Shown piece by piece: positions 7,132-35,756 of a DNA stretch of 64,000 bases. Position numbers and translations under genes: made by a program. Numbering within the stretch: the first letter of the stretch is position 1; every line of letters starts with the position of its first letter. Source of the DNA: Acidisoma cellulosilyticum (lineage in GTDB: Bacteria; Pseudomonadota; Alphaproteobacteria; Acetobacterales; Acetobacteraceae); the NCBI RefSeq assembly GCF_020621385.1, contig NZ_JAESVA010000006.1:186001-250000 (forward strand). Reading direction: 5' to 3'. The notes below the pieces were generated by a model. That model searched no databases. It was not told the origin of the DNA and saw only the letters and a program-made list of their open reading frames with translations.

Positions 7132-7147
7132 TCCCCCAATCGGGGGA
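7132..7147. promoter_or_regulatory. near-perfect 16-bp palindrome upstream of the Hint-protein gene
   Basis: TCCCCCAATCGGGGGA has one mismatch from perfect symmetry and lies 123 nt before the start at 7271. LuxR-type regulators bind such dyads, and three regulator genes of this family lie immediately upstream. It could equally be an mRNA hairpin of 6 bp. Confidence 0.35.
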
Positions 7148-7270
7148 TGTGCCCTTGGCTGGGCTATGCGTTTAGTGAAGCACAAGCAAGCCGGGACAGC
7201 GCAAACATCATGCGCACTCAATCCTCTGAGCCCGAACTGACGCAACCGCGCCTATGTCCGGAGAAATAAG

Positions 7271-10200: not shown

Positions 10201-12130
10201 CGGAACTGACGGCATCGCCAATACCGGCAGCATCGCGGGTGGCTGGGACATCAAGACCAACTCAGCCACGGACGGCGGGACGGACGCCATCGCCAATACC
10301 GGCACCGTCGCGGGCGGCTGGGGCATCCAGACCAACGCGGTTCTGGACGGCGGCACCGACGGCATCGTCAATACCGGCACCGTCATCGGCGGCTGGGACA
10401 TCCAGACCAACGCGGCTGTGGATGGCGGCACGGACGGTATCCTCAATACCGGAAACGTCACCTCCGGCTGGGATATCCAGGTCAATGGCCCGTTCACCAG
10501 CAACAGCGATGGGACCGTTGATTCAGGCAGCGTCACCGGCGGCAAAATCGGTATCGAGGACAAGAACGGCGGCGGCATGGTCGTCAATGGCGGCAGCATT
10601 ACCGGCCAGACGGATAGCGGCATCGTCCTGTCGAACGGCGGCATTGTGAACAATACCGCCGGCGGCCTGATTTCGGGCCACAATGATGGCGTGGTGATCG
10701 GCGGCGGTGGCACCGTCACCAATGCCGGCACCATCGCCGCCACAGCAGGCGACGCCGTCGATTTTCTGGGCAAGGGCACAAACAAGCTCATCGTCCATCC
10801 GGGTGCGGTCTTCGTCGGTGCGGTGACGGCCGCATCCGGCGGCGACAACCTGCTGGAATTGGCGGATGGGCCCGATGCAGCGACAGCCGGAACGCTGTCC
10901 GGTTTGGGTGCAGGGTTTACCGGCTTCTCCGACATCACCGTCGATGCTGACGCGGACTGGGACCTGACCGGCAATACCTCTCTCGCGGAAGGCGCCAAGC
11001 TCTCCGACCTCGGCACCCTGACAGCGGAAGCCGGCTTCACCAATAACGGGCTGATCCTGACGGATCCCGCAACCCTTACCTTCGCGGGGGCCGTCACCGG
11101 CTCTGGCACGATCGATATCGGTGCCGGCAGTGACGTGACCTTTGACAATAGCGTCAGCAATAGCGAGACGGTTGCGTTTACAAGCAACACCGGCACGCTG
11201 ACGCTCGGCGACCTGTCGGCCTTTCATGCCGATAGCCTACCTGCCGCACCCGTCAGCGGTTTCGTCGCCGGCGATCAGGTGCAGGCGGCGGCACTGGTGG
11301 GCGCATCCGCCAGTTTCAGCAGTAGCGGCGGGGATGCCAAGCTCAGTTTCACGCATGACGGCAAGGCAATCGGCAGCCTCACCTTTAGCGGCGCCTATAC
11401 ATCGGAAACGCTTCTGTTCGACAGCACCACGGGCGCGGTCGACACGACAGCCACCGCCCCTTGCTTCGTCAAAGGCACACATATTCTCACCATCCGTGGC
11501 CCTGTCACGGTAGAGACGCTGCGGGTCGGTGATCACGTCCTGACCATCGAGGGGTCTGCCCGCCCCGTGCAATGGCTTGGCCGCCGCAGCATCGATTGCC
11601 GGCGGCATCCGACGCCGTCCAAAGTCAATCCTGTGCGGATCAAGGCCGGTGCCTTCGGCTCATCCTTGCCCGAGCGCGATCTTTACCTGTCGCCGGACCA
11701 CGCCGTCTTCGTGGAAGACGTGCTGATACCGGTGAAGCACCTCATCAACGACCGAACGATCTCTCAGGTGCAAGCGGATGTCGTCCGTTACTATCACGTC
11801 GAACTGCCGCGCCATGGCATCGTCCTGGCGGAAGGTCTGCCCACGGAAAGCTATCTCGATACCGGCGACCGCACCTCCTTCGTCGGTGGCGATGTGACGG
11901 CCCTTCATCCGGCCTGGGGGTCGGAGGCGATGGACGTTTCCCTTCTGATGGACGCCATCGGCTATGCCCCGCTGCGCGTCGCGGGCGACGAAGTCAATCG
12001 CGCGAAGGCGCTGCTGGCGGCCCAGGCGGCCTTCCTTGACACGGAACCGGGCCCCTTTGTGGCCGGCCCGTCAGGCCGCAACCCCTTCGCTTTCCTGACC
12101 GATCTGCTGCCAGTCGAACGGATCGAGTGA
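7271..12130 (+). CDS. giant glycine-rich repeat protein with C-terminal Hint (hedgehog/intein-type) domain
   Basis: 1619 residues; ATG 7271 follows GGAGAAA. Residues 1-420 are low-complexity Gly/Ala/Thr/Asn/Asp with many GGDGG and GGSGG runs. Residues 420-880 are mixed beta-rich sequence. Residues 881-1081 are eight tandem 25-residue units (pattern I-A-N-T-G-x-V-x-G-G-W). Residues 1081-1395 resemble autotransporter-passenger strand-turn repeats. At Cys1398 a Hint domain starts (PCFVKGTHILT, then GDHVLTIEG, VQWLGRRSID, LYLSPDHAVFVEDVLIPVKHLIN), ending with GLPTESYLDTGDR, a block common in Acetobacteraceae Hint_2 proteins. There is no N-terminal signal peptide, so Sec export is unlikely; type I secretion is possible but no exporter is in the window. 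Family knowledge suggests a secreted, self-cleaving surface protein. Its location after three regulators and glycan genes suggests a biofilm or adhesion role (inference). Confidence 0.85.
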   Translation: MDSNVTGSPGANGTIGTGNGASGTSGFAGGDASATAAAAADSTNTAEALGGDGGIGAGGAANTLPDQDGGSGGDGGDGGDATAASEVTHADTDGNSAKATATGGDGGNGGVGGLPAAASGVGGDGGSASASATASNTAGIASASATATGGSGGDSQYDTPLYTDNTYIGIVHPAGNGANVSGSTASASGTTMATATVTQTGGSGGDGPAGGDGGSSTLTDAVSGKTDDGSLNLNQTANGGGGGYGGPYAGPDTATGGNATSDLTLSDTSSSQVTVELHATGGDGGPALQPAGGLLTEGNGGQGEASGTITGAADVYDDVFAAGGYGNAQGGTATASGNGTAGTLANVYVTATGGGANIAGGGANAVAVGTGPTANVTALATGGTGEATTGKATAKATGIGPSGSANASAGGSYENNLVGTEEFLNAGAVAAVLGNATAYAAQSQGDKLGALDTTDQAVSMAVLNPTAASNGTDFGTGDQLLVDIEQGAGNYASLSGAVTNIETLAGQLDFSADPLDSDLLLDLAGATMVGTGVTEVDLHVQVGFASLYESFASGAAALAYFDHNVINLGSIGDLEDSPAQLNQTPVYVTLSVTVDAPDSGFYANSQIGVGSTVTGPDVFTQTETAAGGDYLWSDVANWSLGLPTAGASVVMTGQGVDDIAGLSLASLSLSPGTASADGVLTVTDGLTVDALTIAHTSEIDVTGGTVTLDSVATVSGSGIAPTLYAIGAGAVIEDADATPPALDYIAQGGGMVQLAAAPNAASQLTYIGGGIFALAAPGTTTDAQLAYLGSGDVLELPGTTVSNVALGSDSLSITTDAGTFVFSNVTYDVGGVASFSARPDSKTGLEAITFYNPSGYALAANSPGTLTVGGDTIVSGSTYGISNATDFANGWTIVQNGTVIGGVDGIANLGTLAGGWDIESNAALDGTDGDGIVNTGSIAGGWDIKTNSATDGGTDGIANTGTVTGGWGIQTNAVLDGGTDGIANTGSIAGGWDIKTNSATDGGTDAIANTGTVAGGWGIQTNAVLDGGTDGIVNTGTVIGGWDIQTNAAVDGGTDGILNTGNVTSGWDIQVNGPFTSNSDGTVDSGSVTGGKIGIEDKNGGGMVVNGGSITGQTDSGIVLSNGGIVNNTAGGLISGHNDGVVIGGGGTVTNAGTIAATAGDAVDFLGKGTNKLIVHPGAVFVGAVTAASGGDNLLELADGPDAATAGTLSGLGAGFTGFSDITVDADADWDLTGNTSLAEGAKLSDLGTLTAEAGFTNNGLILTDPATLTFAGAVTGSGTIDIGAGSDVTFDNSVSNSETVAFTSNTGTLTLGDLSAFHADSLPAAPVSGFVAGDQVQAAALVGASASFSSSGGDAKLSFTHDGKAIGSLTFSGAYTSETLLFDSTTGAVDTTATAPCFVKGTHILTIRGPVTVETLRVGDHVLTIEGSARPVQWLGRRSIDCRRHPTPSKVNPVRIKAGAFGSSLPERDLYLSPDHAVFVEDVLIPVKHLINDRTISQVQADVVRYYHVELPRHGIVLAEGLPTESYLDTGDRTSFVGGDVTALHPAWGSEAMDVSLLMDAIGYAPLRVAGDEVNRAKALLAAQAAFLDTEPGPFVAGPSGRNPFAFLTDLLPVERIE
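9911..10513 (+). repeat. eight tandem 75-bp coding repeats with a 150-bp higher-order duplication
   Basis: Units begin at 9911, 9986, 10064, 10139, 10214, 10289, 10364 and 10439; the second is 78 bp, the others 75 bp. Units 3+4 (10064-10213) and 5+6 (10214-10363) are nearly identical at DNA level, showing a recent 150-bp duplication. Each unit encodes one turn-like element with the core NTG-x-V-x-GGW. Confidence 0.9.
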
Positions 12131-12250
12131 AGTCGGCAGAACGAGACTGACGCGCCAATAGGCCAAAAAACCGTGCATTTGCAAGCGTATCCGCGGTGAA
12201 CCTGCGGGCCAGCCGCTGCTGCGACCTGCCCTCGGCCGTTATCATATCCA

Positions 12251-12290
12251 TATAATACTAAATAAAATAGCAATTTAAAAATTAAATTGC
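12251..12290 (+). promoter_or_regulatory. TATAAT box and AT-rich palindrome before the oxygenase operon
   Basis: TATAAT (12251-12256) is a consensus -10 without a good -35 at the right distance. Downstream, GCAATTTAA (12270-12278) is perfectly complementary to TTAAATTGC (12282-12290) with a 3-nt spacer. The dyad would fall at the start of the transcript, a usual place for a repressor site. The block is strikingly AT-rich compared with its surroundings. Confidence 0.5.
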
Positions 12291-12346
12291 CAACGAACGT
12301 ACAACTAGCCATTGTGCCGTTAATAGCGATTCACAAGGCTGAAACC

Positions 12347-13579
12347 ATGAGCAGCGCTCTGCGGACGGACGACAATCACGAGGCTGCGGTTTCAAGACCG
12401 GTGGCGCCGATCATTCGCGATGACGCCGAAGCGATACAGGTCGCCCGCGCCCTGGCACCGGATCTCGCCGCAGGCGCGATCGAGCGTGACCAGAAACGCA
12501 TCCTGCCGCGTGCGGAGCTGGATCTTTTCTCATCCTCCGGCCTCTGGGGCATCACCGTGCCGCGGGCCTATGGCGGCGCCGATGTTTCCTTCGCAACGCT
12601 GGCGGAAGTCATCGCCACCATCTCCGCCGCCGACCCCTCCATCGGGCAGATTCCGCAGAACCATTTTGGCGTCGTCGAAGCGCTGCGCGTGACCGCGAAT
12701 GAGGAGCAGAAGCGGCGCTTCTATCGGGGCGTTCTCGAAGGTCGACGCTTCGGCAATGCCTTTTCCGAATCCGGCAGCAAGCATGCCGGCATTTTCGATA
12801 CCAAGCTTGTGCGCGACGGTGAGATCTATCGCGTCACCGGCCAGAAATTCTACGCCACCGGCGCGCTATTTGCCGATATCATCCCCATCGCCGCGACGGC
12901 CGAAGACGGCAACGCCTATCTGGTCTTTGCCGATCCGAAAGCGCCCGGGCTGACCGTTACCGACAACTGGTCCGGTTTCGGCCAGCGCACCACGGCCAGC
13001 GGCGCTGTCACGCTCGATCATGTGGCGATTGCCGCGCGCGACGTCGTGCCAGCCTATCTCGGCTATGATCAGCCCTCCGCCAACGGCCCTGTCTCACAGA
13101 TCATCCAGGCGGCGGTCGATCTCGGCATCGCTCGCGCGGCGATCGCCGACACCATAGACTTCGTCCGCACGCGGTCCCGCCCTTGGGTCGATAGCGGCCG
13201 CGAAACGGCGGCCGAAGACCCCTATACCATTGCCGCTGTCGGTGATCTGGTCATTCGCCTGCATGCGGCCGAGGCCATTCTCGCCCTCGCCGGCACATCC
13301 GTTGATGCTGCGATCGCCGAAGCGACCGAACAGACCGTCGCCGCCGCGTCGCTGAAGGTCGCCGAAGCCAAGGTTCTCACGACGGAAATCGCTCTTCTCG
13401 CCGGCAATAAGCTGCATGAGTTGGCGGGCACCCGCTCCACCTTGCAGCAGCATGGGCTTGACCGGCATTGGCGCAATGCCCGTACCCATACGCTGCATGA
13501 TCCCGTGCGCTGGAAATTCGCCCTCATCGGCAACCACACCCTGAACGGCGTGCTGCCGCCGCGTCATCCCTGGAATTGA
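12347..13579 (+). CDS. SfnB-type acyl-CoA-dehydrogenase-fold flavin monooxygenase (first copy)
   Basis: 410 residues from ATG 12347 (the frame opens earlier at 12287, but that leader is not family-like). It has the acyl-CoA dehydrogenase fold of the SfnB/DszC group: helical N-terminus, GLWGITVPRAYGGADVS, SIGQIPQNHFGVVEAL, the flavin-site run GNAFSESGSKHAG, GQKFYATGALFAD, then the C-terminal helical domain ending HTLHDPVRWKF. SfnB of Pseudomonas takes part in dimethyl sulfone use under sulfur limitation; DszC oxidises dibenzothiophene with reduced flavin. It leads a long operon and is 17 nt from the NtaA-like gene. It is a close paralogue of the gene at 14981. No flavin reductase is encoded nearby. 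The true substrate is unknown. Confidence 0.85.
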   Translation: MSSALRTDDNHEAAVSRPVAPIIRDDAEAIQVARALAPDLAAGAIERDQKRILPRAELDLFSSSGLWGITVPRAYGGADVSFATLAEVIATISAADPSIGQIPQNHFGVVEALRVTANEEQKRRFYRGVLEGRRFGNAFSESGSKHAGIFDTKLVRDGEIYRVTGQKFYATGALFADIIPIAATAEDGNAYLVFADPKAPGLTVTDNWSGFGQRTTASGAVTLDHVAIAARDVVPAYLGYDQPSANGPVSQIIQAAVDLGIARAAIADTIDFVRTRSRPWVDSGRETAAEDPYTIAAVGDLVIRLHAAEAILALAGTSVDAAIAEATEQTVAAASLKVAEAKVLTTEIALLAGNKLHELAGTRSTLQQHGLDRHWRNARTHTLHDPVRWKFALIGNHTLNGVLPPRHPWN

Positions 13580-13595
13580 CGGCAGGATCACGCTC

Positions 13596-14984
13596 ATGAC
13601 GCGCCCTATCCTATTCAACGCTTTCGACATGAATTGCGTTGTCCACCAATCGCCCGGCCTGTGGCGGCATCCGCGTGACCGCGCCGATCGCTATTCCGAT
13701 CTCAGCTACTGGACCGATCTCGCCCGCATTCTGGAGCGCGGCAAGTTCGACGCCTTGTTCATGGCCGATGTGCTCGGCGTCTATGACGTCTATGGCGGCA
13801 ATACCGATCACGCCTTGCGGGAAGGCACCCAGGTGCCGCTGAACGACCCAATGTTGTCTGTCTCGGCCATGGCGGCGGTGACCGAGCATCTGGGATTCGG
13901 CGTCACCTGCACCCTCTCCTACGAACCGCCCTTCACCCTCGCGCGCCGCATTTCGACGCTCGATCATCTGACCAAGGGTCGCATCGGCTGGAACATCGTC
14001 ACCGGCTATCTGGACAGTGCCGCGCGCGGTGTCTCCGGCGCCGCCAGCCAGCCCAAGCATGACACGCGCTATCAGATCGCCGAAGAATATATGGAGCTTG
14101 TCTACAAGCTTTGGGAAGGTAGCTGGGAGGAAGGCGCGGTTCTGCGTGACCGCGACAGCGGGGTTTTCACCGATCCCGCCAAGGTCCATCGCATCCGGCA
14201 TGAGGGCGAATTCTTCAAGCTCGATGCCATTCACCTCAGCGAACCGTCGCCGCAACGCACGCCGGTTCTGTTCCAGGCCGGCACCTCAAGCAAAGGGCGG
14301 GATTTCGCCGCCCGGCAAGCCGAATGCGTCTTCATGGCCGCGCCCAGCAAGACCGTGGCGCGCGGCTATGTCGCTGATATCCGCAAGCGCGCGGCCGCCT
14401 ATGGCCGCGATCCCTATAGCATCAAGATCTTCAACCTCACCACGGCCATTGTCGGCGCAACGCCGGACGCCGCGCGCGAGAAACATGCCGACTATCGCAG
14501 CTATGTCAGCATCCCCGGCGCGCTGACCTTGCTCTCCGGTTGGACGGGCATCGACTTCTCGGCCTACGACCTCGATGAGCCTTTGCGCTATATCCGTAAT
14601 GAGGCAGTGCATTCAGCCGTGGAATCCTTCACGACGGCCGACCCTTCCCGCGTCTGGACGGTGCGGGAGGTCGCGGAATGGATCGGCATCGGCGGCTTCG
14701 GTCCGCTGCTGGTCGGCTCCGCCAGTGAGGTCGCGGATGAAATGGAATCCTGGGTGGCGGAAACCGATCTGGACGGTTTCAACCTCGCCTATGCCGTGAC
14801 CCCGGAAAGTTTTGTCGACATCGCAGATCTTCTGGTGCCGGAACTGCAGCGTCGCGGCCGCTACAAGACTGACTATGCGGCCGGCACGCTGCGCGAAAAG
14901 CTGTTTCCCGGCCATGGACCGCGACTGAGCGACACACACCCGGCCGCCCAATCCCGCAAGACCATCCTGAGGGCCGCAGAATGA
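13596..14984 (+). CDS. NtaA/SnaA/DszA-family FMN-dependent monooxygenase (first copy)
   Basis: 462 residues of the bacterial-luciferase-like (F420/FMN) TIM barrel, with all the landmarks of the NtaA/SnaA/SoxA(DszA) branch: LFNAFDMNCVVHQSPGLWRHP at the N-terminus, YWTDLARILERGKFDALFMADVLG, HLTKGRIGWNIVT and PVLFQAGTSSKGRDFAA. Family members use FMNH2 and oxygen to cleave C-S or C-N bonds (DszA on dibenzothiophene sulfone, NtaA on nitrilotriacetate). It lies between two SfnB-like genes and overlaps the second by 4 nt (ATGA), so the three are co-translated. The reaction order is probably S-oxidation by the SfnB type, then cleavage by this enzyme, by analogy with Dsz (inference). Confidence 0.88.
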   Translation: MTRPILFNAFDMNCVVHQSPGLWRHPRDRADRYSDLSYWTDLARILERGKFDALFMADVLGVYDVYGGNTDHALREGTQVPLNDPMLSVSAMAAVTEHLGFGVTCTLSYEPPFTLARRISTLDHLTKGRIGWNIVTGYLDSAARGVSGAASQPKHDTRYQIAEEYMELVYKLWEGSWEEGAVLRDRDSGVFTDPAKVHRIRHEGEFFKLDAIHLSEPSPQRTPVLFQAGTSSKGRDFAARQAECVFMAAPSKTVARGYVADIRKRAAAYGRDPYSIKIFNLTTAIVGATPDAAREKHADYRSYVSIPGALTLLSGWTGIDFSAYDLDEPLRYIRNEAVHSAVESFTTADPSRVWTVREVAEWIGIGGFGPLLVGSASEVADEMESWVAETDLDGFNLAYAVTPESFVDIADLLVPELQRRGRYKTDYAAGTLREKLFPGHGPRLSDTHPAAQSRKTILRAAE

Positions 14985-16189
14985 GCGCTGCTTTTGATCT
15001 GCGCGGGCAAACCGCCCGCATTCGCGACGGTGCTGAGGCGATCGCCGTGGCACACCGCCTGGCGGCGGCATTCGCACCCGGCGCGGCCGAGCGTGACCGC
15101 GACCGCCGCCTTCCGCATGCGGAGATGGACCGCTATTCGGAAAGCGGCCTTCTCGCCATCACCGTGCCGAAAGCCTATGGCGGCGCCGGCGTTTCCGCGG
15201 CAACCCTGGCGACGGTCACGGCTATCATCGCGGCCGCCGATGGCAGCATCGGCCAGATTCCGCAAAACCATTTCTTCGTCATCGAAGCCATCCGCCTCAC
15301 CGCGACCGAAGTGCAGAAACGCCATTGGTTCGAGCGCGTTCTGCAGGGCGAGCGCTTCGGCAATGCGTTGAGCGAAGCGGGCACGAAAACCGCCCATGAC
15401 TATGCAACCTTTCTGAAGCCTGACGCGCAAGACTTGCTCCGCCTCAATGGCCGCAAATTCTATTCGACCGGCGCTTTATTCGCGCATTGGGTGGCAGCCG
15501 TCGCCAAGGACAGGAATGACCGGCTGGTCTTCGCTTTCCTGAAACCCGACACGGCGGGCGTCACGCTGATCGATGACTGGTCCGGCTTCGGCCAGCGCAC
15601 CACCGGCAGCGGCACCACGATCTTCGAGAATGCGATTGTCGACCCCCTCGGCGTCATCCCCTACCAGAACGCCTTCGATCACCCGACCTCGATGGGACCT
15701 CTGGCGCAGATCATCCATGCGGCGGTCGATATCGGCATCGGCCGCGCGGCCTTGGCTGAGACGATCGACTTCGTGCAGCATCGCAGCCGGCCCTGGATCG
15801 ATAGCGGCAAGGAAACGGCGGCCGAAGATCCCTATACCATCGCACAGATCGGCGATTTGACCATCCGTCAGAATGCCGCCGAAGCCCTATTGGCGCGCGC
15901 CGGCCGCTATGTCGACGCGGCGGCCGAAACACCCACGGAGGAGACGGTGGCCGAGGCTTCGGTCGCCGTCGCCGAAGCCAAGGCGTTCGGGACAGAAGCG
16001 GCGTTGACGGCCGCCAATAAATTGCATGAACTGGCCGGCACGCGCTCGACCCTGGCCGCGCATAATCTCGACCGGCACTGGCGCAATGTCCGCGTCCATA
16101 CGCTGCATGATCCCGCGCGCTGGAAATATGCCGCCATCGGCAATTACTATCTGAACGGCATCAAGCCGCCGCGCCACGGAGCGATTTGA
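14981..16189 (+). CDS. SfnB-type acyl-CoA-dehydrogenase-fold flavin monooxygenase (second copy)
   Basis: 402 residues, clearly paralogous to the gene at 12347 (shared SIGQIPQNHF, DDWSGFGQRTT, DRHWRN, HTLHDPxRWK). The strand-helix landmarks GLLAITVPKAYGGAG and GRKFYSTGALFAHW are intact, and the flavin-site stretch reads GNALSEAGTKTAHD. It starts inside the stop of the NtaA-like gene and its own stop overlaps the start of the ABC ATPase, so oxygenases and importer are in one translationally coupled unit. Having two SfnB-like proteins around one NtaA-like protein suggests either a hetero-oligomer or two related substrates. Confidence 0.85.
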   Translation: MSAAFDLRGQTARIRDGAEAIAVAHRLAAAFAPGAAERDRDRRLPHAEMDRYSESGLLAITVPKAYGGAGVSAATLATVTAIIAAADGSIGQIPQNHFFVIEAIRLTATEVQKRHWFERVLQGERFGNALSEAGTKTAHDYATFLKPDAQDLLRLNGRKFYSTGALFAHWVAAVAKDRNDRLVFAFLKPDTAGVTLIDDWSGFGQRTTGSGTTIFENAIVDPLGVIPYQNAFDHPTSMGPLAQIIHAAVDIGIGRAALAETIDFVQHRSRPWIDSGKETAAEDPYTIAQIGDLTIRQNAAEALLARAGRYVDAAAETPTEETVAEASVAVAEAKAFGTEAALTAANKLHELAGTRSTLAAHNLDRHWRNVRVHTLHDPARWKYAAIGNYYLNGIKPPRHGAI

Positions 16190-17703
16190 TGGCGCAGCCT
16201 GCTCTGGCGCTCCGCGATCTGGTCAAGACCTTCGGCGCGACACGCGCGCTGGACAATGCCAATCTGGTCGTGGAACGCGGTGCCATCCATGGCCTTATCG
16301 GCCAGAACGGCGCTGGCAAATCGACCATCATCAAGATCCTGGGCGGGCTTTACAAAGCGGATAGCGGCTCAGTCACGATCGACGGCCAAACGCTGACCCA
16401 TGTCTCGCCAAGGGCGATCGAGCATCTCGGCATTCATATCATCCATCAGGAAGCGCTTCTGGTGCCCAGCTTCACGGTGGCGGAAGCGCTGTTTCTGGGC
16501 GCGGAACCCGGCATCGGTCCCTTGCTGTCCCGACGCACCATGCGCAAACGCGCCGAAGATATCATCGGCAGCTATTTCGACATGATGCTGCCACGCGACG
16601 CGCTGATTGGGGAATTGAGCGCCGCCCATCGGCAGATCGTGCAGATCACGCGCGCCTTGCTCAATCGCCCCGCCGTTCTGGTCTTCGATGAACCCACGGC
16701 CTCGCTGGTGCGGCGGGAAGCGCATCGGCTTTTCGGGCTTATCCGTCGCCTGCGCGATGAAGGCACATCGATCGTCTATATTTCGCACTACCTTGAGGAA
16801 GTGCAGGACCTTTGCGACAAGGTGACGGTCCTGCGCAACGGACGGGATGTCGCAACCTTGGACCCGCGCGACACGCCGCTGCAGGACATTGTCTCCCTCA
16901 TGATCAATCGCGAGATTGGCGACATGTTCCCCAAATCGGCGGTGCCGATCGGCAAACCTGCGCTCAGCGTCCAGGGTCTGACCCGGCGCGGCCATTTCAC
17001 GAATGTCGATTTCACGCTGCATGCGGGCGAGATTCTCGGCCTCACCGGTCTCGTCGGGTCCGGGGCCAAGGAAGTCCTCGCGGCCATCTTCGGCCTCGCA
17101 CCCGCCGACCAGGGCAGCATCACGACCCATGGCAAGCAAGGCGCCGTCGGCTCTCCCGCTGGCGCCATCCGCCGGGGCCTCGGGCTGGTGCCCGAAGACC
17201 GGCGCGGCCAGGGCATCGCGCTCGATATGTCGGTGCGCGAGAACACCACCCTTGCCAGTCTGGGGAAGCTCACCCGCTTCGGCTTCATCAGCCGGCGCCG
17301 CGAGGCTGAGACTGTGCGGCAGCTGATCGCGCGCCTCGGCATCAAAACGCCGGGGCCGGATGCGCGGGTGCGCGATCTCAGCGGCGGCAATCAGCAAAAG
17401 GTCGTGCTCGCCAAATGGCTGAGCGCCGCCTCCGATATTTACCTGCTCGACGAGCCGACGGTCGCGATCGACGTCGCGGCCAAGGTGGAGATCTATCGCC
17501 TCTTGGGTGATCTCGCGCAGCGCGGTGCCGCCGTGCTGATCCTCTCCTCCGATCTGTTGGAGTTGCAGGGCATCTGCGACCGTATCCTAGTCCTCCATCG
17601 CGGCCGCATCACCCATCGGCTGCGGCCGGCGGACACGACGCCGGAGGAGATTCTGGCGGCCGCCACCGGCGCTGCCGGCCTCGGTGAAAGCATCGCGGCA
17701 TGA
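16189..17703 (+). CDS. CUT2 (ribose-type) ABC importer ATPase, importer A
   Basis: 504 residues with two fused nucleotide-binding domains, the layout of RbsA/MglA. Domain 1 has Walker A GQNGAGKST, a degenerate signature LSAAHRQ, Walker B VLVFDEPTAS and YISHYLEEV. Domain 2 has the degenerate P-loop GLVGSGAKE usual for this family, LVPEDRRGQG, signature LSGGNQQK and DEPTVAIDV. I chose ATG 16189, which overlaps the stop of the SfnB-like gene; TTG 16186 is less likely. It is the first clear importer component in the operon. Coupling of a CUT2 importer to SfnB/NtaA oxygenases is unusual, because sulfonate systems normally use SsuABC-type importers. Confidence 0.93.
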   Translation: MAQPALALRDLVKTFGATRALDNANLVVERGAIHGLIGQNGAGKSTIIKILGGLYKADSGSVTIDGQTLTHVSPRAIEHLGIHIIHQEALLVPSFTVAEALFLGAEPGIGPLLSRRTMRKRAEDIIGSYFDMMLPRDALIGELSAAHRQIVQITRALLNRPAVLVFDEPTASLVRREAHRLFGLIRRLRDEGTSIVYISHYLEEVQDLCDKVTVLRNGRDVATLDPRDTPLQDIVSLMINREIGDMFPKSAVPIGKPALSVQGLTRRGHFTNVDFTLHAGEILGLTGLVGSGAKEVLAAIFGLAPADQGSITTHGKQGAVGSPAGAIRRGLGLVPEDRRGQGIALDMSVRENTTLASLGKLTRFGFISRRREAETVRQLIARLGIKTPGPDARVRDLSGGNQQKVVLAKWLSAASDIYLLDEPTVAIDVAAKVEIYRLLGDLAQRGAAVLILSSDLLELQGICDRILVLHRGRITHRLRPADTTPEEILAAATGAAGLGESIAA

Positions 17704-18737
17704 GCAGCAATGTCCTCGCCGATCAAGCGCCCGCTTTCACCGAACGCTCTGTCGATCTGGAAGATCGGGATATCAGACGCGCCCGCCGCCAAAGCCAGGT
17801 CATCCGGCTTGGCTCCATCGCCGCGCTGATCGCGGTCTTCGCCTATTTCAGCGCCGTCGCCCCTGGTTTTGCCAATCTCGGCAATATCGCGAATGTCATC
17901 GAGCAATCGGCCGTGCTGGCTTTGCTCGCCTTCGGTATGAGCATCGTCGTGCTCGGCGGTGGTGGGGATGTCATCCGCGGCGGTATCGATCTATCGCTCG
18001 GCGCTAATCTCGGCCTTTGCGTCGCGGTCTTTGCGGTCGCATCCAACGCCGGCTTCAGTGACTGGCTGGCGGTCGCGATTACCTTCGGCACCGGGGCCGC
18101 TGTCGGCTTGCTCAATGCAATCGCCGTCGTCGGGCTTGGCGTCCTGCCGCTTCTGGCGACCCTTGCGGTGATGAATATCTGCGCGGGCGCCGAACTCGTT
18201 CTCACTCAGAACACGGTGATATCGACCAATTCGCCGCTGCTCGGCTCTATCGTCGGCCTGTCCTGGCTGGGGCTTTCCGTCACCGACTGGGTTCTGGTCG
18301 CGGCCACGGTTGTGCTGATTGTCCTGGTGCAGGGCACGCGCTGGGGGTTGCGATTGCAAGCCGTGGGCGGCCAGCGCCAGGCCGCGCGTGCTGCCGGGCT
18401 CCGCGTGCAGGCCTATCTGGCCGGCACCTATGTCGCGGCGGGACTTCTGGCAGCCCTCGCCGCCATCCTGCAGGCGGCGCGGCTCAGCGGCAGTTCGCCG
18501 GGCTCGGGCGATATCCTGCTCTCGGTCGTGCTCACCAGTCTGATGAGCACCGTCTTTTCGCGGCGCCTGCTGCCCACCATCGGCGGCACGCTGCTCAGCG
18601 TGCTGTTTATCGGCAGCCTGATCAACGGCTTCCAGCTTCTCAACGTCTCCAGCTATTGGGTGAACGGCGTGCAGGGCGTGCTCATCCTGTTCGTCGTCGC
18701 CGTGCGATCGCTGTCCACCCGCCGTGGGGGCGCCTGA
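17700..18737 (+). CDS. CUT2 ABC importer permease 1, importer A
   Basis: 345 residues, about 8-10 membrane segments, BPD_transp_2 (RbsC) family. It carries the family marker GGIDLSLGANLGL after the third segment, preceded by an unusual glycine run GGGGDVIRGG, and a C-terminal LLPTIGGTLLSVLFIGSLINGF. A soluble leader of about 35 residues precedes the first helix. The start overlaps the ATPase stop (ATGA), and the next permease follows 1 nt after its stop, so importer A has two different permeases forming a heterodimeric channel. Confidence 0.92.
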   Translation: MSSNVLADQAPAFTERSVDLEDRDIRRARRQSQVIRLGSIAALIAVFAYFSAVAPGFANLGNIANVIEQSAVLALLAFGMSIVVLGGGGDVIRGGIDLSLGANLGLCVAVFAVASNAGFSDWLAVAITFGTGAAVGLLNAIAVVGLGVLPLLATLAVMNICAGAELVLTQNTVISTNSPLLGSIVGLSWLGLSVTDWVLVAATVVLIVLVQGTRWGLRLQAVGGQRQAARAAGLRVQAYLAGTYVAAGLLAALAAILQAARLSGSSPGSGDILLSVVLTSLMSTVFSRRLLPTIGGTLLSVLFIGSLINGFQLLNVSSYWVNGVQGVLILFVVAVRSLSTRRGGA

Positions 18738-18738
18738 C

Positions 18739-19722
18739 ATGTCGGCTTCCGTCCCTATGGGTCGCCCCATCGGCGCCCAGCTTGTCCGCGTCACCACGCC
18801 CGCCGCTCTCATCGCCCTTTTCCTGATCTTCGCGGCGATCTCACCGACTTTCCGCACGCCCGGCAATATCCTCCATATCCTGGTCAACAACTTCTCTCTC
18901 CCGGCCTTGGTCGCGCTGGGGATGACGCTGGTCATCTCTGCCGGTGGGATCGATTTGTCGGTCGGCGTCGCCGCAGATATCGCGGCCATGCTGGCCGTCA
19001 CATTGATGGAGCATGGCTCGGGGCTCGGCCTCAGCCTCATCGCCGGTATCGGCGGCGCACTCGTCGTCGGGCTGCTCGATGCCCTGCTCATCACAGTCTT
19101 CGGCATCAGCCCCTTTCTCGCGACGCTCGGCGTGCTTTTCATCGGCGAGAGCGTGCAGCAATTGGCGACCAACGGCGGCACACCTATCTACCTCGTCTCC
19201 AACTATCCTGCCGCTGGGCTGGACTATCTCGCCCATGGGCAGATCCTCGGCCTGCCGCTGACACTTTGGCTGGTCGCGCTCGCCGTCGTCCTGGTGCAGG
19301 TTCTGCTGAGCAGCACCGCCTTCGGCAGGCATTTGCGTGCTATCGGCGCCGAGCCCCGCGTCGCCTGGCATTCGGGCCTGCCGGTGCGGCGGACGACCTG
19401 GCTTGTCTATCTGCTATCGGCGCTGCTTTGCGGTCTCGCCGGTCTGCTGCTCTCGGCGACCGTCAAATCCTATGTGCCGCTATCGGGCAATGCCTTCATG
19501 CTGGACGCGATCGGCGCGGTCTTTGTCGGCACAACCATCAGCCGCGAGGCGCGGCCGAATGTGCTCGGCACGCTGCTCGGCGTCTTCTTCTTCGGCATGC
19601 TGCATAACGGCCTCCTCCTGATCGGCTGGAATTTCTACTGGCAGCAGGTCGCTATCGGCCTTCTGGTCTTCATCGTGCTCGGCATCAGTTTCCTGAGCCG
19701 GCGATTGCAGACCGCCGACTGA
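18739..19722 (+). CDS. CUT2 ABC importer permease 2, importer A
   Basis: 327 residues, RbsC family, with SAGGIDLSVGVAADIAAML and the terminal NVLGTLLGVFFFGMLHNGLLL. I take ATG 18739, one base after the previous stop; GTG 18724 in the same frame would overlap the upstream gene by 14 nt. It differs clearly from permease 1, so the pair looks like an RbsC-type heterodimer rather than a recent duplication. The binding-protein gene follows 31 nt later with its own AAGGA site. Confidence 0.92.
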   Translation: MSASVPMGRPIGAQLVRVTTPAALIALFLIFAAISPTFRTPGNILHILVNNFSLPALVALGMTLVISAGGIDLSVGVAADIAAMLAVTLMEHGSGLGLSLIAGIGGALVVGLLDALLITVFGISPFLATLGVLFIGESVQQLATNGGTPIYLVSNYPAAGLDYLAHGQILGLPLTLWLVALAVVLVQVLLSSTAFGRHLRAIGAEPRVAWHSGLPVRRTTWLVYLLSALLCGLAGLLLSATVKSYVPLSGNAFMLDAIGAVFVGTTISREARPNVLGTLLGVFFFGMLHNGLLLIGWNFYWQQVAIGLLVFIVLGISFLSRRLQTAD

Positions 19723-19753
19723 CTTTTCTTTCGTATAAGACAAGGATAAAACA

Positions 19754-20731
19754 ATGTCGTTTCGGAAACGCCTTCTGGCCGGGCTTGCGCTCACGCTCGG
19801 CCTCGGCTCCCTCGCGGTCTCGGCGGCCCAGGCACAGGACGCCCCTAGCCTGAAGGGCAAGCGCATCGGCATCACCGTCGCGGGCACCGAACATTACTGG
19901 GATCTGAAAGCCTATCAGGGCCAGATTGACGAGGTGAAGCGCCTCGGCGGTATCCCCATCGCCCTTGATGCCGGCCGCAACGACAGCCGCCAGATCGCCC
20001 AGATCCAGACCCTGATCGCGCAGAAGCCTGATGCCATCGTCGAGCAGCTTGGCAGCGCGCCGGTGCTGCAACCCTGGCTGAAGAAAATCCGCGCCGCCGG
20101 TATTCCGCTCTTTACGGTCGATACCATCTCGCCCTACAGCATCAACGACACCACCTCGGACAATTACAGCATCGGCGAGAAACTCGCTTTGCAACTCGCG
20201 AGTGACATCAAGGGACGCGGCAATATTCTCGTCTTCAACGGTTTCTACAGCGTGCCCGTCTGCGCCATTCGGTATGACGAGCTGAAGCTTGTGCTGCGCG
20301 CCTTCCCCGATATCCATATCATCCAGCCGGAACTGCGCGACGTCATTCCCAATACGGTGCAGAACGCCTATTCCCAGGTCACCGATATGCTGCAGAAATA
20401 TCCGAACAAGGGCGATATCGCAGCCATCTGGTCGGCTTGGGATGTGCCGCAGGTCGGCGCGACCCAGGCTGTCCTCGCCGCGCACCGGACCGAAGTGCGC
20501 ACCTATGGTGTCGACGGCAGCCCGGATGTCGTGAAGATGGTGGCCGATCCTGCCTCCCCGGCTTCCGCCGTCGCCGCCCAGCAGCCCTATCTCATCGGCA
20601 AGACGGCCATCGATACGGTTGCGCGCTATCTCGCCGGCGATCATGACCTGCCGCCCTATACCTTCTTGCCCGCCATTCTGGTGAACAAGCAGAACGCGGC
20701 CGATGCGGCCAAGGCACTGGGACAGTCCTGA
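19754..20731 (+). CDS. CUT2 periplasmic substrate-binding protein, importer A
   Basis: 325 residues: Sec signal peptide MSFRKRLLAGLALTLG... with probable cleavage after AQA (residue 27), then a type-1 periplasmic fold (Peripla_BP_4) opening RIGITVAGTEHYWDLKAYQGQIDEVKRLGG. The usual CUT2 opening has a Phe pair that stacks on a pyranose; here HYWD offers aromatic contacts. DAIVEQLGS, the AIWSAWDVPQVGA hinge and YGVDGSPDVVKM are recognisable. It is the last importer gene and is placed before the second pair of oxygenases. The ligand is presumably the compound attacked by those enzymes. Confidence 0.9.
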   Translation: MSFRKRLLAGLALTLGLGSLAVSAAQAQDAPSLKGKRIGITVAGTEHYWDLKAYQGQIDEVKRLGGIPIALDAGRNDSRQIAQIQTLIAQKPDAIVEQLGSAPVLQPWLKKIRAAGIPLFTVDTISPYSINDTTSDNYSIGEKLALQLASDIKGRGNILVFNGFYSVPVCAIRYDELKLVLRAFPDIHIIQPELRDVIPNTVQNAYSQVTDMLQKYPNKGDIAAIWSAWDVPQVGATQAVLAAHRTEVRTYGVDGSPDVVKMVADPASPASAVAAQQPYLIGKTAIDTVARYLAGDHDLPPYTFLPAILVNKQNAADAAKALGQS

Positions 20732-20764
20732 TCGCCCTCAATCCATTCCGCCCGGACCATCGCC

Positions 20765-22135
20765 ATGGCTAAGCCGCTGCGCCTCAACGCTTTCACCATG
20801 GCGACGCCGGATCATCTCTCGCCCGGCCTATGGCGGCATCCACGCAGCGATGCCGCCCGCTATCACCAACGCGGCTATTGGACGGAGCTTGCGCGCATTC
20901 TGGAGCGCGGGTTGTTCGATGGTCTGTTTATCGCCGATACTTTGGGCGTCAGCGATGTCTTCAAGGCCAGCCGGGATACGGCCCTGGCCGACGGGCTGCA
21001 TCTCCCCGTCAATGATCCGCTTCTCGCCGTCTCGGCGATGGCGGAGGTGACGGAGCATCTGGGTTTCGGCGTCACGGTCTCCATGACCTACGAACATCCC
21101 TTCCAGCTTGCCCGCCGGATGTCGACGCTCGACCATCTGACGGACGGCCGCATCGGCTGGAATATGGTCACTTCGGCACTGGACAGCGCGTCGCGCGCCT
21201 TCGGCCGCGCGGCGCAACTGCCCCATGATTCGCGCTATGACATGGCCGATGAATACGCGGCGCTTTGCTACAAGCTTTGGGAAGGTAGCTGGTCCGATCG
21301 CGCCGTCATCAATGATGCGGCCAGCGGCCGCTATGTCGATCCGGCCCAGGTGCGATCCATTCATCACGACGGCGCGCATTTCAAGCTGGACGCCATCCAT
21401 CTTTGCGAACCCTCCCCGCAACGGACGCCTGTCCTGTATCAGGCGGGTGCCTCGCCGCGCGGAAGGCGCTTCGGCGCGGAAAACGCAGAATGCATCTTCA
21501 TCGGTGCGCCCTCCAAACGCGTGCTCGGCACATTCGTGGCGGCCGTGCGGGACAGCATTCGCGCGGCCGGGCGCGACCCGCATGAGGTACTGATCTTTGC
21601 CGAACATACAGTGATCGTCGGCAAGACGGACCGGGAAGCGGCGGCCAAGGAAGCCGAGTATCGGCATTACTGCTCGGACGAAGCGGCACTCGCGCTGATG
21701 TCCGGATGGATCGGGACCGATCTCAGCCGCTACAAGCTGGACGATCCCTTTCACCATATCGACAGCAATGCCATCCGCACGGCCGTGGAAGCGATGAGTT
21801 CCGCCGATCCCGATCGCGTCTGGACCATTCGGGAAATCGCCGCCTGGTGCGGCATCGGCGGCCTCAGCCCGGTGACGACCGGCTCGGCCGAGCGTGTCGC
21901 CGATACCCTCATCGCCTGGACCGAGGAAACCGATATCGACGGTTTCAATCTCGCCCATGCCGTCACGCATGAAAACTTCCGGGATATCGCCGATCTTCTG
22001 GTGCCGGAATTGCAGCGCAGAGGCGTCTACAAACAGGCCTATGCGCCCGGTACCCTACGCCAGAAGCTGTTCGGCCGTGGCGACCGCTTGCCGTCGCATC
22101 ATCCCGCCGCCGCCCATCGCTGGCCAGCCGAATGA
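20765..22135 (+). CDS. NtaA/SnaA/DszA-family FMN-dependent monooxygenase (second copy)
   Basis: 456 residues, paralogue of the gene at 13596. It keeps LRLNAFTMATPDHLSPGLWRHP, YWTELARILERGLFDGLFIADTLG, DHLTDGRIGWNMVTS, YKLWEGSW and PVLYQAGASPRGRRF. The motif set is complete, so it should be active. It differs from the first copy in the substrate-facing loops, for example SVSMTYEHPFQLARR where the first has TLSYEPPFTLARR, arguing for a different oxidation step or ligand. It sits 33 nt after the binding protein and 61 nt before the DszC-like gene. Confidence 0.88.
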   Translation: MAKPLRLNAFTMATPDHLSPGLWRHPRSDAARYHQRGYWTELARILERGLFDGLFIADTLGVSDVFKASRDTALADGLHLPVNDPLLAVSAMAEVTEHLGFGVTVSMTYEHPFQLARRMSTLDHLTDGRIGWNMVTSALDSASRAFGRAAQLPHDSRYDMADEYAALCYKLWEGSWSDRAVINDAASGRYVDPAQVRSIHHDGAHFKLDAIHLCEPSPQRTPVLYQAGASPRGRRFGAENAECIFIGAPSKRVLGTFVAAVRDSIRAAGRDPHEVLIFAEHTVIVGKTDREAAAKEAEYRHYCSDEAALALMSGWIGTDLSRYKLDDPFHHIDSNAIRTAVEAMSSADPDRVWTIREIAAWCGIGGLSPVTTGSAERVADTLIAWTEETDIDGFNLAHAVTHENFRDIADLLVPELQRRGVYKQAYAPGTLRQKLFGRGDRLPSHHPAAAHRWPAE

Positions 22136-22196
22136 CAATTCAGATGATACCGCAACATTCTTCGGCACTCCCTTTGCCGGACAACAGGACAAACAG

Positions 22197-23441
22197 ATGA
22201 TGGCCTATGACCGTTCCAATCTCCCCGACGACGTCAAGCTGGGCTCCGGCTGGGGCAGTGCCGGCGATCCGGAATGGGACGGACTGACCAAGCGCTTCCG
22301 CCCGGTCTTCGCGCGCATTCGTGAAGACGCCGTCAAGCGCGAACTTGGCCGCGGCCTGCCGCATGACGAGATCGGCTGGCTGCGCGAAACGGGTTTCACC
22401 GCCATGCGCGTGCCGCAGGAGGCCGGCGGCCTCGGTGTCAGCCTGGTCAATTTCTTCGCGCTTCTGATCGATCTATCGGAGGCCGATTCCAATATCACCC
22501 AGGCGCTGCGCGCGCATTTCGGCTTCGTCGAGCATATTCGCACGGAAGCACCACCGGCGCGCCAGGCGCGATGGTTCGACCGGCTATTGCGGGGCGATGT
22601 CGTCGGCGCCGGCTGGTCCGAACTCGGCAACGCGAAACAGGCCGCCTTCTCGGCGGAACTCCGCCAGACGGCAGAAGGATGGCGGCTCAACGGTTCCAAA
22701 TTTTATACCACCGGCACGCTGTTTTCGGATTGGGTGCATGTCGGCGCCTCGGATAGTGAGGGCAATGGCGTCAGCGTCGTCGTCTCCCGCCATGCGCCGG
22801 GGGTGGAGGTATTGGACGACTGGAACGGCATGGGTCAGCGTCTCACCGCCAGCGGCACCACGCATTTCCGCGATGTGCCCGTGGAGGATTGCGAAATCGT
22901 GAGAGAGCGCGCGCCCTTCGGCTATTCCGAGGCCTTCTTTCAACTGGTGCATCTGGCGACGCTTGCCGGCATCGGCCGCGCCGCCGCCAGTGACACCGCA
23001 TCCATCCTGCGCATCCGCAAGCGGAGCTACAGCAATGCAACGACCGCTATGGCGCCGGAGGACCCTCAGCTGCTGCAGGTCGTGGGCCGCGTGCGGGCCC
23101 ATGCCTATGCCGCCGGCGCCATCGTTCACCACGCCGCGCGCGCCTTGGACAAGGCCGCCGCCATCGGCAATGATCAGGATCCGGCGCTGATCGCGGAGGC
23201 CGAGATCGAGATCTGGCAGGCGCAATCGGTCGTATCTCAGCTGATCATCGATGCCACGGCGTCCCTCTTCGATGCGCTCGGCGCCTCCGCCACGCTGCGC
23301 GACGCCGGACTTGATCGCTACTGGCGGAACGCCCGCACCATCAGCTCTCACAATCCGCGCGTCTATAAGGATCGCATCATCGGAGATTTTGCCGTCAACG
23401 GCCGCATTCCGCAGGGCCAATGGCGTATCGGGCAGGCATGA
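22197..23441 (+). CDS. DszC/acyl-CoA-dehydrogenase-like flavin monooxygenase (third copy)
   Basis: 414 residues from ATG 22197, placed 7 nt after AGGA; the frame extends upstream into the previous gene but that part is not coding. The protein has the SfnB/DszC fold (GFTAMRVPQEAGGLGVSL, NITQALRAHFGFVEHI, GSKFYTTGTLFSDW, DDWNGMGQRLTASGTT, LDRYWRNARTISSHNP) but is more divergent from the two SfnB-like copies than they are from each other. The C-terminal RNARTISSHNPRVYK matches the DszC/desulfurisation branch better. It is the last gene of the operon; a strong hairpin follows. Confidence 0.85.
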   Translation: MMAYDRSNLPDDVKLGSGWGSAGDPEWDGLTKRFRPVFARIREDAVKRELGRGLPHDEIGWLRETGFTAMRVPQEAGGLGVSLVNFFALLIDLSEADSNITQALRAHFGFVEHIRTEAPPARQARWFDRLLRGDVVGAGWSELGNAKQAAFSAELRQTAEGWRLNGSKFYTTGTLFSDWVHVGASDSEGNGVSVVVSRHAPGVEVLDDWNGMGQRLTASGTTHFRDVPVEDCEIVRERAPFGYSEAFFQLVHLATLAGIGRAAASDTASILRIRKRSYSNATTAMAPEDPQLLQVVGRVRAHAYAAGAIVHHAARALDKAAAIGNDQDPALIAEAEIEIWQAQSVVSQLIIDATASLFDALGASATLRDAGLDRYWRNARTISSHNPRVYKDRIIGDFAVNGRIPQGQWRIGQA

Positions 23442-23466
23442 AGCCGGTCCAAACCCGAGAGCAGAT

Positions 23467-23494
23467 CCCGGTCAGATGGAACCATCTGACCGGG
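23467..23494. terminator. strong bidirectional hairpin between convergent operons
   Basis: CCCGGTCAGATGG (23467-23479) and CCATCTGACCGGG (23482-23494) form a perfect 13-bp stem with a 2-nt central gap. It lies between the end of the oxygenase operon (23441) and the end of the hexuronate operon (23531, opposite strand). There is no U-run directly after it on the plus strand, but an AT-rich stretch starts about 15 nt on. Confidence 0.65.
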
Positions 23495-23530
23495 CCAGGA
23501 TGCTCGCAAAAACAATAATTTAAGGCGAAA

Positions 23531-24517
23531 TCACCACCGGGCGTGAACGTAAGGGCGAATGTCCGCGTCGTAGATCCCGCGCAAAGTCTCCATGACCTGA
23601 TCCGATAGCGGCGGCAGCGCGGCGGCCGCAGCGTTGGATTCCGCCTGCTCGGGATTGCGCGCACCCGGAATAACGACGGATACGGCCTCGAACATCAGGA
23701 TCCAGCGCAAGGCCAGACGCGCCATGGTCGTATCGTCACCCACCAGCGGACGGATTTTCTCGACCGCTTCCAGCCCGACCTCGTATGGCACGCCGGAGAA
23801 GGTCTCGCCGACATCGAAGGCTTCGCCGTGCCGGTTGAACTTTCTGTGGTCGGACTCCGCGAATGTCGTCTCTGCCTTGAACTTACCCGACAGCAATCCG
23901 CTCGCCAGCGGCACGCGCGCGACGATCGCGACATCATGCGCCCGCGCCTGATCGAACAGCAGCGCGATCGGCCTGCGGCGAAAGATATTGAAGATGATCT
24001 GGATACTGACGACACCGGGATAGTCCAAAGCCTTCAGCGCTTCCTCAACCCGCTCGACGCTCACGCCATAGTCGCGGATAAGCCCCAAAGCCTTGATCTC
24101 TTCCAGGGTCTCGAACACCTCGGGATGGTAATAGAGGTCGGTCGGCGGGCAATGCAGCTGCACGAGATCGAGCTGGTCCATCTCCAGATTTTTCCGGCTG
24201 CGGTCGATCCAGGCGAGAAGATTCGCACGGCTATAGCCCTCGACCGTCTGTGCCGGCAGCCGCCGGCCGGCCTTCGTCGCGACAAAGGGCCGCTCGCCGC
24301 CACGCTCCTTCAACACGCCGGCAATCAGCCTTTCCGAATGCCCGTCGCCATAGACATCGGCCGTGTCGAGGAAGGTGACACCGGAATCGAGTGCCGCGTG
24401 CAAAGCCTTGCGCGAGGCCGCATCATCGACATCGCCCCAACTGGCCCCGATGGCCCAGGCCCCGAACCCGATTTCGCCGACGGCTTTGCCGGTCTTGCCG
24501 AAGAGTCTCGTTTTCAT
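23531..24517 (-). CDS. aldo/keto reductase (operon B)
   Basis: 328 residues from the ATG at 24517 (GAGGG just upstream; the frame opens earlier at 24559). The AKR tetrad is visible: Asp51 and Tyr56 in FLDTADVYGDGHSE, Lys82 in VATKAG, His122 in LVQLHCPP. The C-terminal nucleotide site PGARNPEQAESNAAA indicates NADP/NAD binding. It is the last gene of a minus-strand operon with a CUT2 importer, KdgD and uronate dehydrogenase, so it probably reduces or oxidises an aldose or uronate feeding that route. The AKR12/YccK-like group often oxidises sugars at C1. It is not the same type as the second AKR at 29797. Confidence 0.85.
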   Translation of the reverse strand: MKTRLFGKTGKAVGEIGFGAWAIGASWGDVDDAASRKALHAALDSGVTFLDTADVYGDGHSERLIAGVLKERGGERPFVATKAGRRLPAQTVEGYSRANLLAWIDRSRKNLEMDQLDLVQLHCPPTDLYYHPEVFETLEEIKALGLIRDYGVSVERVEEALKALDYPGVVSIQIIFNIFRRRPIALLFDQARAHDVAIVARVPLASGLLSGKFKAETTFAESDHRKFNRHGEAFDVGETFSGVPYEVGLEAVEKIRPLVGDDTTMARLALRWILMFEAVSVVIPGARNPEQAESNAAAAALPPLSDQVMETLRGIYDADIRPYVHARW

Positions 24518-35739: not shown

Positions 35740-35756
35740 GGTCGATTGTCCCCGGA

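Follow-up and report, generated by a model that had tools for sequence, protein, structure and literature searches.

A CUT2-type importer set among SfnB- and NtaA/DmoA-family oxygenases in Acidisoma cellulosilyticum, a possible sulfur-scavenging operon

Within a stretch of 64,000 nucleotides of the Acidisoma cellulosilyticum genome (contig NZ_JAESVA010000006.1, positions 186,001 to 250,000; hereafter the window), a run of nine genes, g1 to g9, places an importer of the CUT2 type among oxygenases of the SfnB and NtaA/DmoA families. A CUT2 importer is defined by a tandem ATP-binding cassette (ABC) ATPase, two BPD_transp_2 permeases and a Peripla_BP_4 binding protein, and the question raised by this locus is what such a sugar-type importer does in the company of these oxygenases. 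The pairing itself is real and recurs in other soil and plant bacteria. As for its meaning, the odds are about even (probability of roughly 0.5) that the run is a sulfur-scavenging operon, where a sugar-like thioether would be imported, its sulfur oxidised and its C-S bond cleaved, with reduced flavin supplied from elsewhere. Soil and plant bacteria have many organosulfur oxygenases of the SfnB and NtaA families, with substrates known for only a few, and the presence of a dedicated importer gives a clue to the type of compound on which these enzymes work. Were the ligand a thio-sugar such as 5-methylthioribose, a metabolite discarded by some cells would become a sulfur source for others.

The run of nine genes and its recurrence

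Positions 12347-23441 of the window are filled by nine intact open reading frames (ORFs) of the same strand, with families in agreement between Pfam and NCBIfam (Table 1); the gene order given by the initial annotation, made from the sequence alone, is confirmed, with corrections to g9 and to the nearest kin of g2 and g8. Both g1 and g3 pass the cut-off of the SfnB equivalog, which g9 fails, and both g2 and g8 pass that of the TIGR03860 subfamily. The last gene had been called DszC-like, an identity rejected here: against the 850 bits required by the DszC model NF043015, g9 scores only 113 bits, g1 219 and g3 222. The solved protein closest to g9 is 8CDA, a "probable monooxygenase" (135 bits), and g9 has SSHNP at the place corresponding to the HTLHDP motif of g1 and g3; in g3, this motif aligns with a similar one of DszC and its histidines presumably have a catalytic role. 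Among solved proteins, DmoA is closest to both g2 (6AK1, 560 bits) and g8 (480 bits), followed by LadA (477 and 450 bits, respectively) and riboflavin lyase (291 and 276 bits), HcbA1 and DszA also being matched. We further take CmoJ, i.e., YtnJ, to be a family relative of g2.

The CUT2 set is complete in the run, and none of its parts is assigned to a named sugar. For g4, models of the AraG, XylG and RbsA type score highest, each below its own cut-off, and none of the best 25 of 189 models exceeds an equivalog cut-off; likewise, among the models listed, no named-sugar CUT2 equivalog (RbsABC, AraFGH, XylFGH and others) is over its cut-off for g5, g6 or g7. At the junctions, g2/g3 and g4/g5 overlap by 4 nt, and g3/g4 by 4 nt with the TTG start or by 1 nt (TGATG) with an ATG at 16189, while gaps separate g1/g2 (16 nt), g6/g7 (31 nt), g7/g8 (33 nt) and g8/g9 (61 nt). 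Judging from the sequence, g6 probably starts at ATG 18739, leaving a 1-nt gap as in Acidisoma silvae, rather than at GTG 18724. The coupling of oxygenases to importer by overlapping stop and start codons, as initially proposed, thus stands at g3/g4 only, because g7/g8, the other importer-oxygenase junction, has a gap. Terminator-like matches in 12000-23800 number 8 versus 7.6 expected by chance, all within genes and none in the gaps of the run. Upstream of g1, the would-be promoter place shows poor conservation when aligned with its counterparts in A. silvae and Acidisoma sp. L85, and this three-sequence alignment yielded no common regulatory site.

Purifying selection acts on every gene of the run: in comparison with A. 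silvae (L037), the ratio of nonsynonymous to synonymous substitution rates (dN/dS) ranges from 0.046 to 0.137. This nearest named relative, in which the binding protein encoded by g7 (SBP1) is 94% and g1 88% identical, has all nine genes in the same order, with a second SBP1-like gene lying between g8 and g9. In Acidisoma sp. L85 (L038), g1 to g7 are present; as for g8 and g9, the stretch compared yields matches to their paralogues g2 and g1 alone.

Table 1. Features of the run and of the gap preceding it (coordinates of the window)
Feature	Position	Strand	Assignment	Support
Gap 5' of the run	12131..12346	+	would-be promoter place	sigma-70-like match 12239-12268, putative only
g1	12347..13579	+	SfnB-family oxidoreductase, acyl-CoA dehydrogenase fold family, 410 aa	TIGR04022, 616 bits (cut-off 430.9); HTLHDP motif
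g2	13596..14984	+	NtaA/DmoA-family flavin mononucleotide (FMN)-dependent monooxygenase, 462 aa	TIGR03860, 566 bits (cut-off 279.7)
g3	14981..16189	+	second SfnB-family oxidoreductase, 402 aa	TIGR04022, 607 bits; closest solved protein DszC, 198 bits
g4	16186..17703	+	CUT2 importer ATPase, two ABC domains, 505 aa from TTG	PF00005, two stretches
g5	17700..18737	+	CUT2 importer permease, 345 aa	PF02653; nine named sugar-permease models match, all below cut-off
g6	18739..19722	+	second CUT2 permease	PF02653; start matches A. silvae
g7 (SBP1)	19754..20731	+	periplasmic binding protein, Peripla_BP_4, 325 aa	PF13407
g8	20765..22135	+	second NtaA/DmoA-family monooxygenase, 456 aa	TIGR03860, 530 bits (cut-off 279.7)
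g9	22197..23441	+	acyl-CoA-dehydrogenase-fold-family, monooxygenase-like, 414 aa	scores under the cut-offs: 305 bits with the SfnB model, 113 bits with the DszC model

The neighbourhood search suggested by the initial annotation, namely for such importers beside both SfnB and NtaA genes, was carried out from the binding protein. A profile scan of SBP1 with two conserved peptide patterns, on one genome per species, gave at least 338 relatives, of which the best 80 were kept; these 80 loci lean towards close relatives of SBP1. With matches counted at 45% identity for SfnB/NtaA, 50% for aldolase/kinase and 40% coverage, in flanks of up to 10 kb (less at contig ends), SfnB and/or NtaA genes accompany SBP1 in 33 of the 80 loci (SfnB in 27, NtaA in 30), both kinds occurring together in 24. 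Counting SfnB, NtaA and g9 types alike, the distance from SBP1 to the nearest oxygenase gene is at most about 4.1 kb in 32 of these 33 loci and at most 0.5 kb in 15; the position of the oxygenases relative to the importer varies, i.e., before and in the same direction (Verrucomicrobiota metagenome-assembled genomes, MAGs), after (Pantoea, Erwinia) or divergent (Paraburkholderia).

Another 27 loci have a class II aldolase and/or a PfkB kinase belonging to a recurrent sugar operon, namely GntR, short-chain dehydrogenase/reductase (SDR), class II aldolase, SBP1, ATPase, permease, permease, PfkB kinase and SDR (L032, L033, L145). The two classes never coincide, neither aldolase nor kinase being found in the 33 loci and neither SfnB nor NtaA in the 27, aldolase and kinase being the sugar enzymes sought. 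The other 20 loci match none of the SfnB, NtaA, aldolase or kinase references, which does not make their neighbourhoods empty; L039, a short contig with an SfnB fragment, is scored among these 20 but treated as oxygenase-linked in the SBP1 tree and in the comparison of contact residues. In that tree (87 rows, 86 of them different), the aldolase/kinase type forms one clade (100/100), while the oxygenase type is scattered over the rest among unassociated loci. On plasmids, 5 of 11 neighbourhoods (flank of 8 or 12 kb) have SfnB and/or NtaA-family genes (Pantoea, Shinella, Methylobacterium, Phyllobacterium and Sinorhizobium); the aldolase/kinase type accounts for another 3, and the last 3 belong to neither class.

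Some further features of these neighbourhoods can be recorded. In many loci, the sugar operon adjoins genes for an acetoacetyl-CoA ligase and a thiolase. In Caballeronia/Burkholderia loci (L063, L067, L072, L078, L081), SBP1 lacks an ATPase and permeases of its own, its neighbours being SfnB and a second binding protein. Compared with their Pantoea counterparts (L031:11908-14407), the binding protein of the run is 74% identical and the ATPase 47%, the reverse of the pattern expected for ABC importers.

Clues to the ligand and to sulfur

The structure predicted for SBP1 (mean predicted local distance difference test, pLDDT, of 88) finds 4WT7 as its best solved match (62% identity), then 3L49 (70%). 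While 4WT7 was solved with allitol, the polar bonds reported for it are to docked sorbitol rather than to the allitol of the crystal, namely through H61, R89, R187, D268 and Q290 (PMC10318746, Table 2). At a constant offset of 14, these residues correspond to H47, R75, R173, D254 and Q276 of g7, and they are identical in all 87 SBP1 rows whatever the neighbourhood, which is partly expected because the 80 loci lean towards close relatives. Given the 62% identity to the allitol-binding protein and the five conserved contacts, the ligand of g7 is probably polyhydroxylated, and a sugar-like molecule, as anticipated in the initial annotation, appears fairly likely from the sequence, although the same contacts occur in plain sugar operons. 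A pocket specialised for sulfur was considered and rejected, the contact residues not differing between neighbourhood classes.

A more concrete candidate comes from the genes associated with the pair in related loci. A second CUT2 binding protein occurs in 20 of the 80 loci, A. silvae included, i.e., in 17 of the 33 oxygenase loci and 3 of the 20 unassociated ones versus none of the 27 with the sugar operon, and also on the Methylobacterium and Sinorhizobium plasmids; it has its own permease in 19 of 22 cases and its own ATPase in 17 of 22 (at least 50% identity). For two representatives (L068 and L037), the best solved match is 4RY8 (209 and 176 bits, respectively), titled a 5-methylthioribose transporter binding protein. 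This lends some support to a thio-sugar, one of the options in the initial annotation, and makes 5-methylthioribose or a relative a candidate ligand of the cluster family, though not of g7 itself, which is 23% identical to 4RY8 versus 62% to 4WT7. The compound would be available in nature, since Escherichia coli without the dihydroxyacetone phosphate (DHAP) shunt excretes it, according to the accessible part of PMC10986504. A. silvae has the permease and binding protein of this second importer immediately before g1, plus a further copy after g9; in the window, the place directly upstream of the run (7271-12130) is occupied by a gene for a 1619-aa Gly/Ala-rich repetitive protein with a C-terminal Hint_2 domain.

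Neighbouring genes also point to sulfur. Genes of the Met, Ssu or O-acetylhomoserine sulfhydrylase type are near in 6 of the 33 oxygenase loci, versus 1 of the 27 sugar-operon loci and none of the 20 others, counts given without a significance value because a Fisher test takes no account of relatedness. The clearest case is the Shinella plasmid, where SsuD, a further ABC importer, an O-acetylhomoserine sulfhydrylase-family gene and a methionine-type importer are followed by SfnB. A sulfur role of the cluster is likely, in line with the organosulfur function first suggested as possible, although beside the run itself no gene matched a small set of sulfur references.

The rest of the genome (6.0 Mb, 59 contigs) was searched as well. 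No flavin reductase or regulator is found among the nine genes in Pfam and NCBIfam, as had been noted, and the corollary that reduced flavin must come from elsewhere agrees with 3 matches to PF01613 and 7 to PF03358, a family that includes proteins other than flavin reductases, all on contigs other than that of the run. One SsuD is over its cut-off, also on another contig, along with 4 SfnB and 14 NtaA/DmoA genes over theirs in the genome as a whole. The two other SfnB genes over the cut-off adjoin other importers: (i) on contig C7, MetQ, MetN, MetI, SfnB and NtaA follow one another in one direction, then two electron-transfer-flavoprotein genes, a possible source of reductant for flavin enzymes (C7:200001-219000, 6939-13943), and (ii) on contig C5, a luciferase-like oxygenase and a branched-chain-type importer (Peripla_BP_6) precede SfnB in one direction (C5:418001-434000, 2634-9966). 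From these settings, we infer what looks like one oxygenase module with exchangeable importers.

A proposed route and its competitors

In the sulfur-scavenging operon as we propose it, g4 to g7 would import an organosulfur compound that is polyhydroxylated and sugar-like; a thioether is the most likely choice, for example 5-methylthioribose, its sulfoxide or a near relative. The SfnB-type enzymes g1 and g3 would oxidise the sulfur to the sulfoxide or sulfone, cleavage of the C-S bond would fall to the NtaA/DmoA-type enzymes g2 and g8, and the sulfinate or sulfenate set free may be a substrate of g9, which would oxidise it. General enzymes, the SsuD encoded elsewhere in the genome among them, would then yield sulfite, and reduced FMN would be provided by a flavin reductase also encoded elsewhere. 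Of this scheme, computation shows the genes and their families, the selection on them, the recurring association, the conserved contacts and the presence of SsuD and flavin-reductase-family genes in the genome, whereas sulfur as the element sought, the thioether chemistry, the allotment of steps to enzymes and the ligand are inferred. Precedents exist for several of these steps. In dimethyl sulfide (DMS) metabolism, the acyl-CoA-dehydrogenase-fold oxygenases Dms1-3 convert DMS to dimethyl sulfoxide (DMSO) and then to dimethyl sulfone (DMSO2), one flavin reductase serving the whole pathway, as given in the available text of PMC13352529. CmoO makes a sulfoxide of which CmoJ then cleaves the C-S bond (PMC10863075). 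When dibenzothiophene is the sulfur source, Gordonia shows a response of SfnB, of acyl-CoA dehydrogenases and of an NtaA/DmoA protein, a finding taken here only as a response, its direction aside, for the accessible text gives negative RNA-seq log2 values for sfnB and others versus increases by quantitative reverse-transcription PCR (PMC11852219). The main text of a study on sulfur starvation in Pseudomonas aeruginosa (PMC12581299) contains neither "sfnB" nor "sugar".

Several observations weigh against this proposal. Regarding the chemistry, cleavage of the C-S bond by g2 and g8 does not follow from their kinship with DmoA, because PMC13352529, as far as its text is accessible, presents DmoA as oxidising DMS to DMSO and reports that none of the TIM-barrel (group C) enzymes screened was active on DMS; SfnB is not mentioned in that text. 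Regarding the ligand, the pocket gives no sign of sulfur because its contacts are the same in the sugar-operon clade; the second binding protein is only about one-third identical to 4RY8 by eye, and a search of the window genome at an E-value of 1e-20 gave no 4RY8-like binding protein. This genome could moreover use 5-methylthioribose otherwise, because it has the methionine salvage kinase MtnK on another contig; with MtnK in 6 of the 14 genomes examined, the idea that missing methionine salvage forces the oxygenase route is also weakened. Regarding context and distribution, no further ORF of the window matched a small sulfur-gene reference set, which is not a full annotation, and a quarter of the loci (20/80) have neither oxygenase nor aldolase/kinase references in the flank. 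Phyla assigned from MAGs could be mis-binned. Near home, SBP1 is rare: leaving aside the genome of the window, G124 alone has a close full-length counterpart (77%) among 299 genomes of the order, G058 has a fragment with a stop, and others are at 32% identity or less among the matches listed; a search of 385 genomes of the class at an E-value of 1e-40 recovered that of the window and no other.

The main competitor, which we regard as rather unlikely, is that an ordinary polyol or sugar importer is co-transcribed with general organosulfur oxygenases, both handling different molecules with at most a common regulation. Its strongest point is that the same contacts occur in the sister clade within the aldolase/PfkB-kinase/SDR operon; the allitol held by 4WT7, the closest solved relative by structure search, speaks for it too, as do the relatives without SfnB or NtaA genes in the flank. 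So do the further CUT2-type importer genes of the window, with ATPase- and permease-like ORFs whose identity to g4 or g6 is 30-42% at 26531-27358 (within 26531-28458), 33238-35781, 47936-49459, 53636-56571 and 61957-63984, which suggest a sugar-import island. Such an arrangement would, however, leave aside that the pairing recurs across several families and gene orders, that a second CUT2 importer joins the same clusters, and that aldolase/kinase loci are confined to one clade with no such gene in the oxygenase loci, within the sugar enzymes sought.

Two other explanations were considered. That the substrate of the oxygenases bears nitrogen, a ribityl group or carbon, like those of the nitrilotriacetate (NTA), ethylenediaminetetraacetate (EDTA), riboflavin or alkane enzymes of the same family, without sulfur being sought, is improbable: the NtaA family is functionally mixed, and LadA and riboflavin lyase also match g2 and g8, but the best match of both is the dimethyl sulfide enzyme DmoA, two proteins exceed the SfnB equivalog cut-off, and the sulfur-related genes mentioned above lie beside some related loci. 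Slightly less probable still is the desulfonation of a sulfosugar (sulfonate) in the manner of sulfoquinovose monooxygenase with other oxygenases. A precedent for pairing an ABC importer with a monooxygenase that breaks C-S bonds oxygenolytically is known (PMC9594981); against this explanation, SsuD models give at most 66 bits for g2 and 60 bits for g8 versus cut-offs of 510-518, and the nine genes include no glycosidase or sugar dehydrogenase in Pfam and NCBIfam.

Scavenging of sulfur from a sugar-like thioether may be extended, in a speculative scheme that we consider doubtful, to a widespread oxygen-dependent desulfurisation of thio-sugars. Two CUT2 importers, one allitol-type and one 5-methylthioribose-type, would take up S-methyl thio-sugars that other organisms release, and SfnB and NtaA/DmoA enzymes would free the sulfur of these compounds, bypassing methionine salvage and the DHAP shunt, and the strain of the window would keep a reduced, one-importer form.

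Comparison with known systems

Oxygenolytic sulfur scavenging with a dedicated ABC importer is already known, Ssu being such a system, and the importer of the CmoO/CmoJ system is of the amino-acid type, not CUT2. Sulfoquinovose monooxygenase clusters are another instance, in which, according to the accessible text, a C-S cleaving oxygenase goes with an ABC importer of a sulfosugar derivative (PMC9594981), a case overlooked in the initial statement that known systems use other importers. The companion statement that no described system has this layout agrees with the literature searched, mostly non-subscription, in which no description of a CUT2 importer tied to SfnB and NtaA/DmoA enzymes or of the two-importer form was found. 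A thio-sugar sulfur route, if true, is likewise not described in this literature.

Alike in substrate type are these sulfoquinovose monooxygenase (sulfo-ASMO) clusters, which like the run as proposed combine a sugar-like organosulfur compound, an ABC importer and a C-S cleaving flavin oxygenase, with the flavin reductase sometimes elsewhere; unlike the run, they rely on a dehydrogenase together with an oxygenase of the SsuD type, and the available text mentions neither SfnB nor NtaA genes (PMC9594981). The SsuD/SquD-type monooxygenase that characterises such a cluster is absent from the run, SsuD being elsewhere in the genome. Alike in enzymes is dimethyl sulfide assimilation (Sfn/Msu, Dms1-3; DmoA), where oxygenases of the acyl-CoA-dehydrogenase fold and of the TIM barrel act in sequence, a likeness at the level of the fold, and where one flavin reductase is shared, as far as PMC13352529 is accessible; its substrate is small and volatile, whereas the run has a CUT2 importer, and "ABC transporter" is absent from the main text of that paper. 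The CmoO/CmoJ salvage of S-alkylcysteine in Bacillus subtilis resembles the proposal in that one flavoenzyme sulfoxidises and another cleaves the C-S bond, and departs from the run by an amino-acid substrate and by acetylation and deacetylation (PMC10863075).

On the importer side, the 4WT7-type CUT2 importers of Rhizobiaceae, with the aldolase/PfkB-kinase operon of Mesorhizobium and others, share the binding-protein family and contacts of the run; unlike it, the aldolase/kinase clade goes with catabolic genes, without SfnB or NtaA genes near. Finally, methionine salvage and the DHAP shunt have in common with the run the candidate ligand, i.e., 5-methylthioribose, for which 4RY8 is a solved binding protein of the Peripla_BP_4 type, while a kinase, an isomerase and an aldolase or further steps there take the place of the flavin oxygenases.

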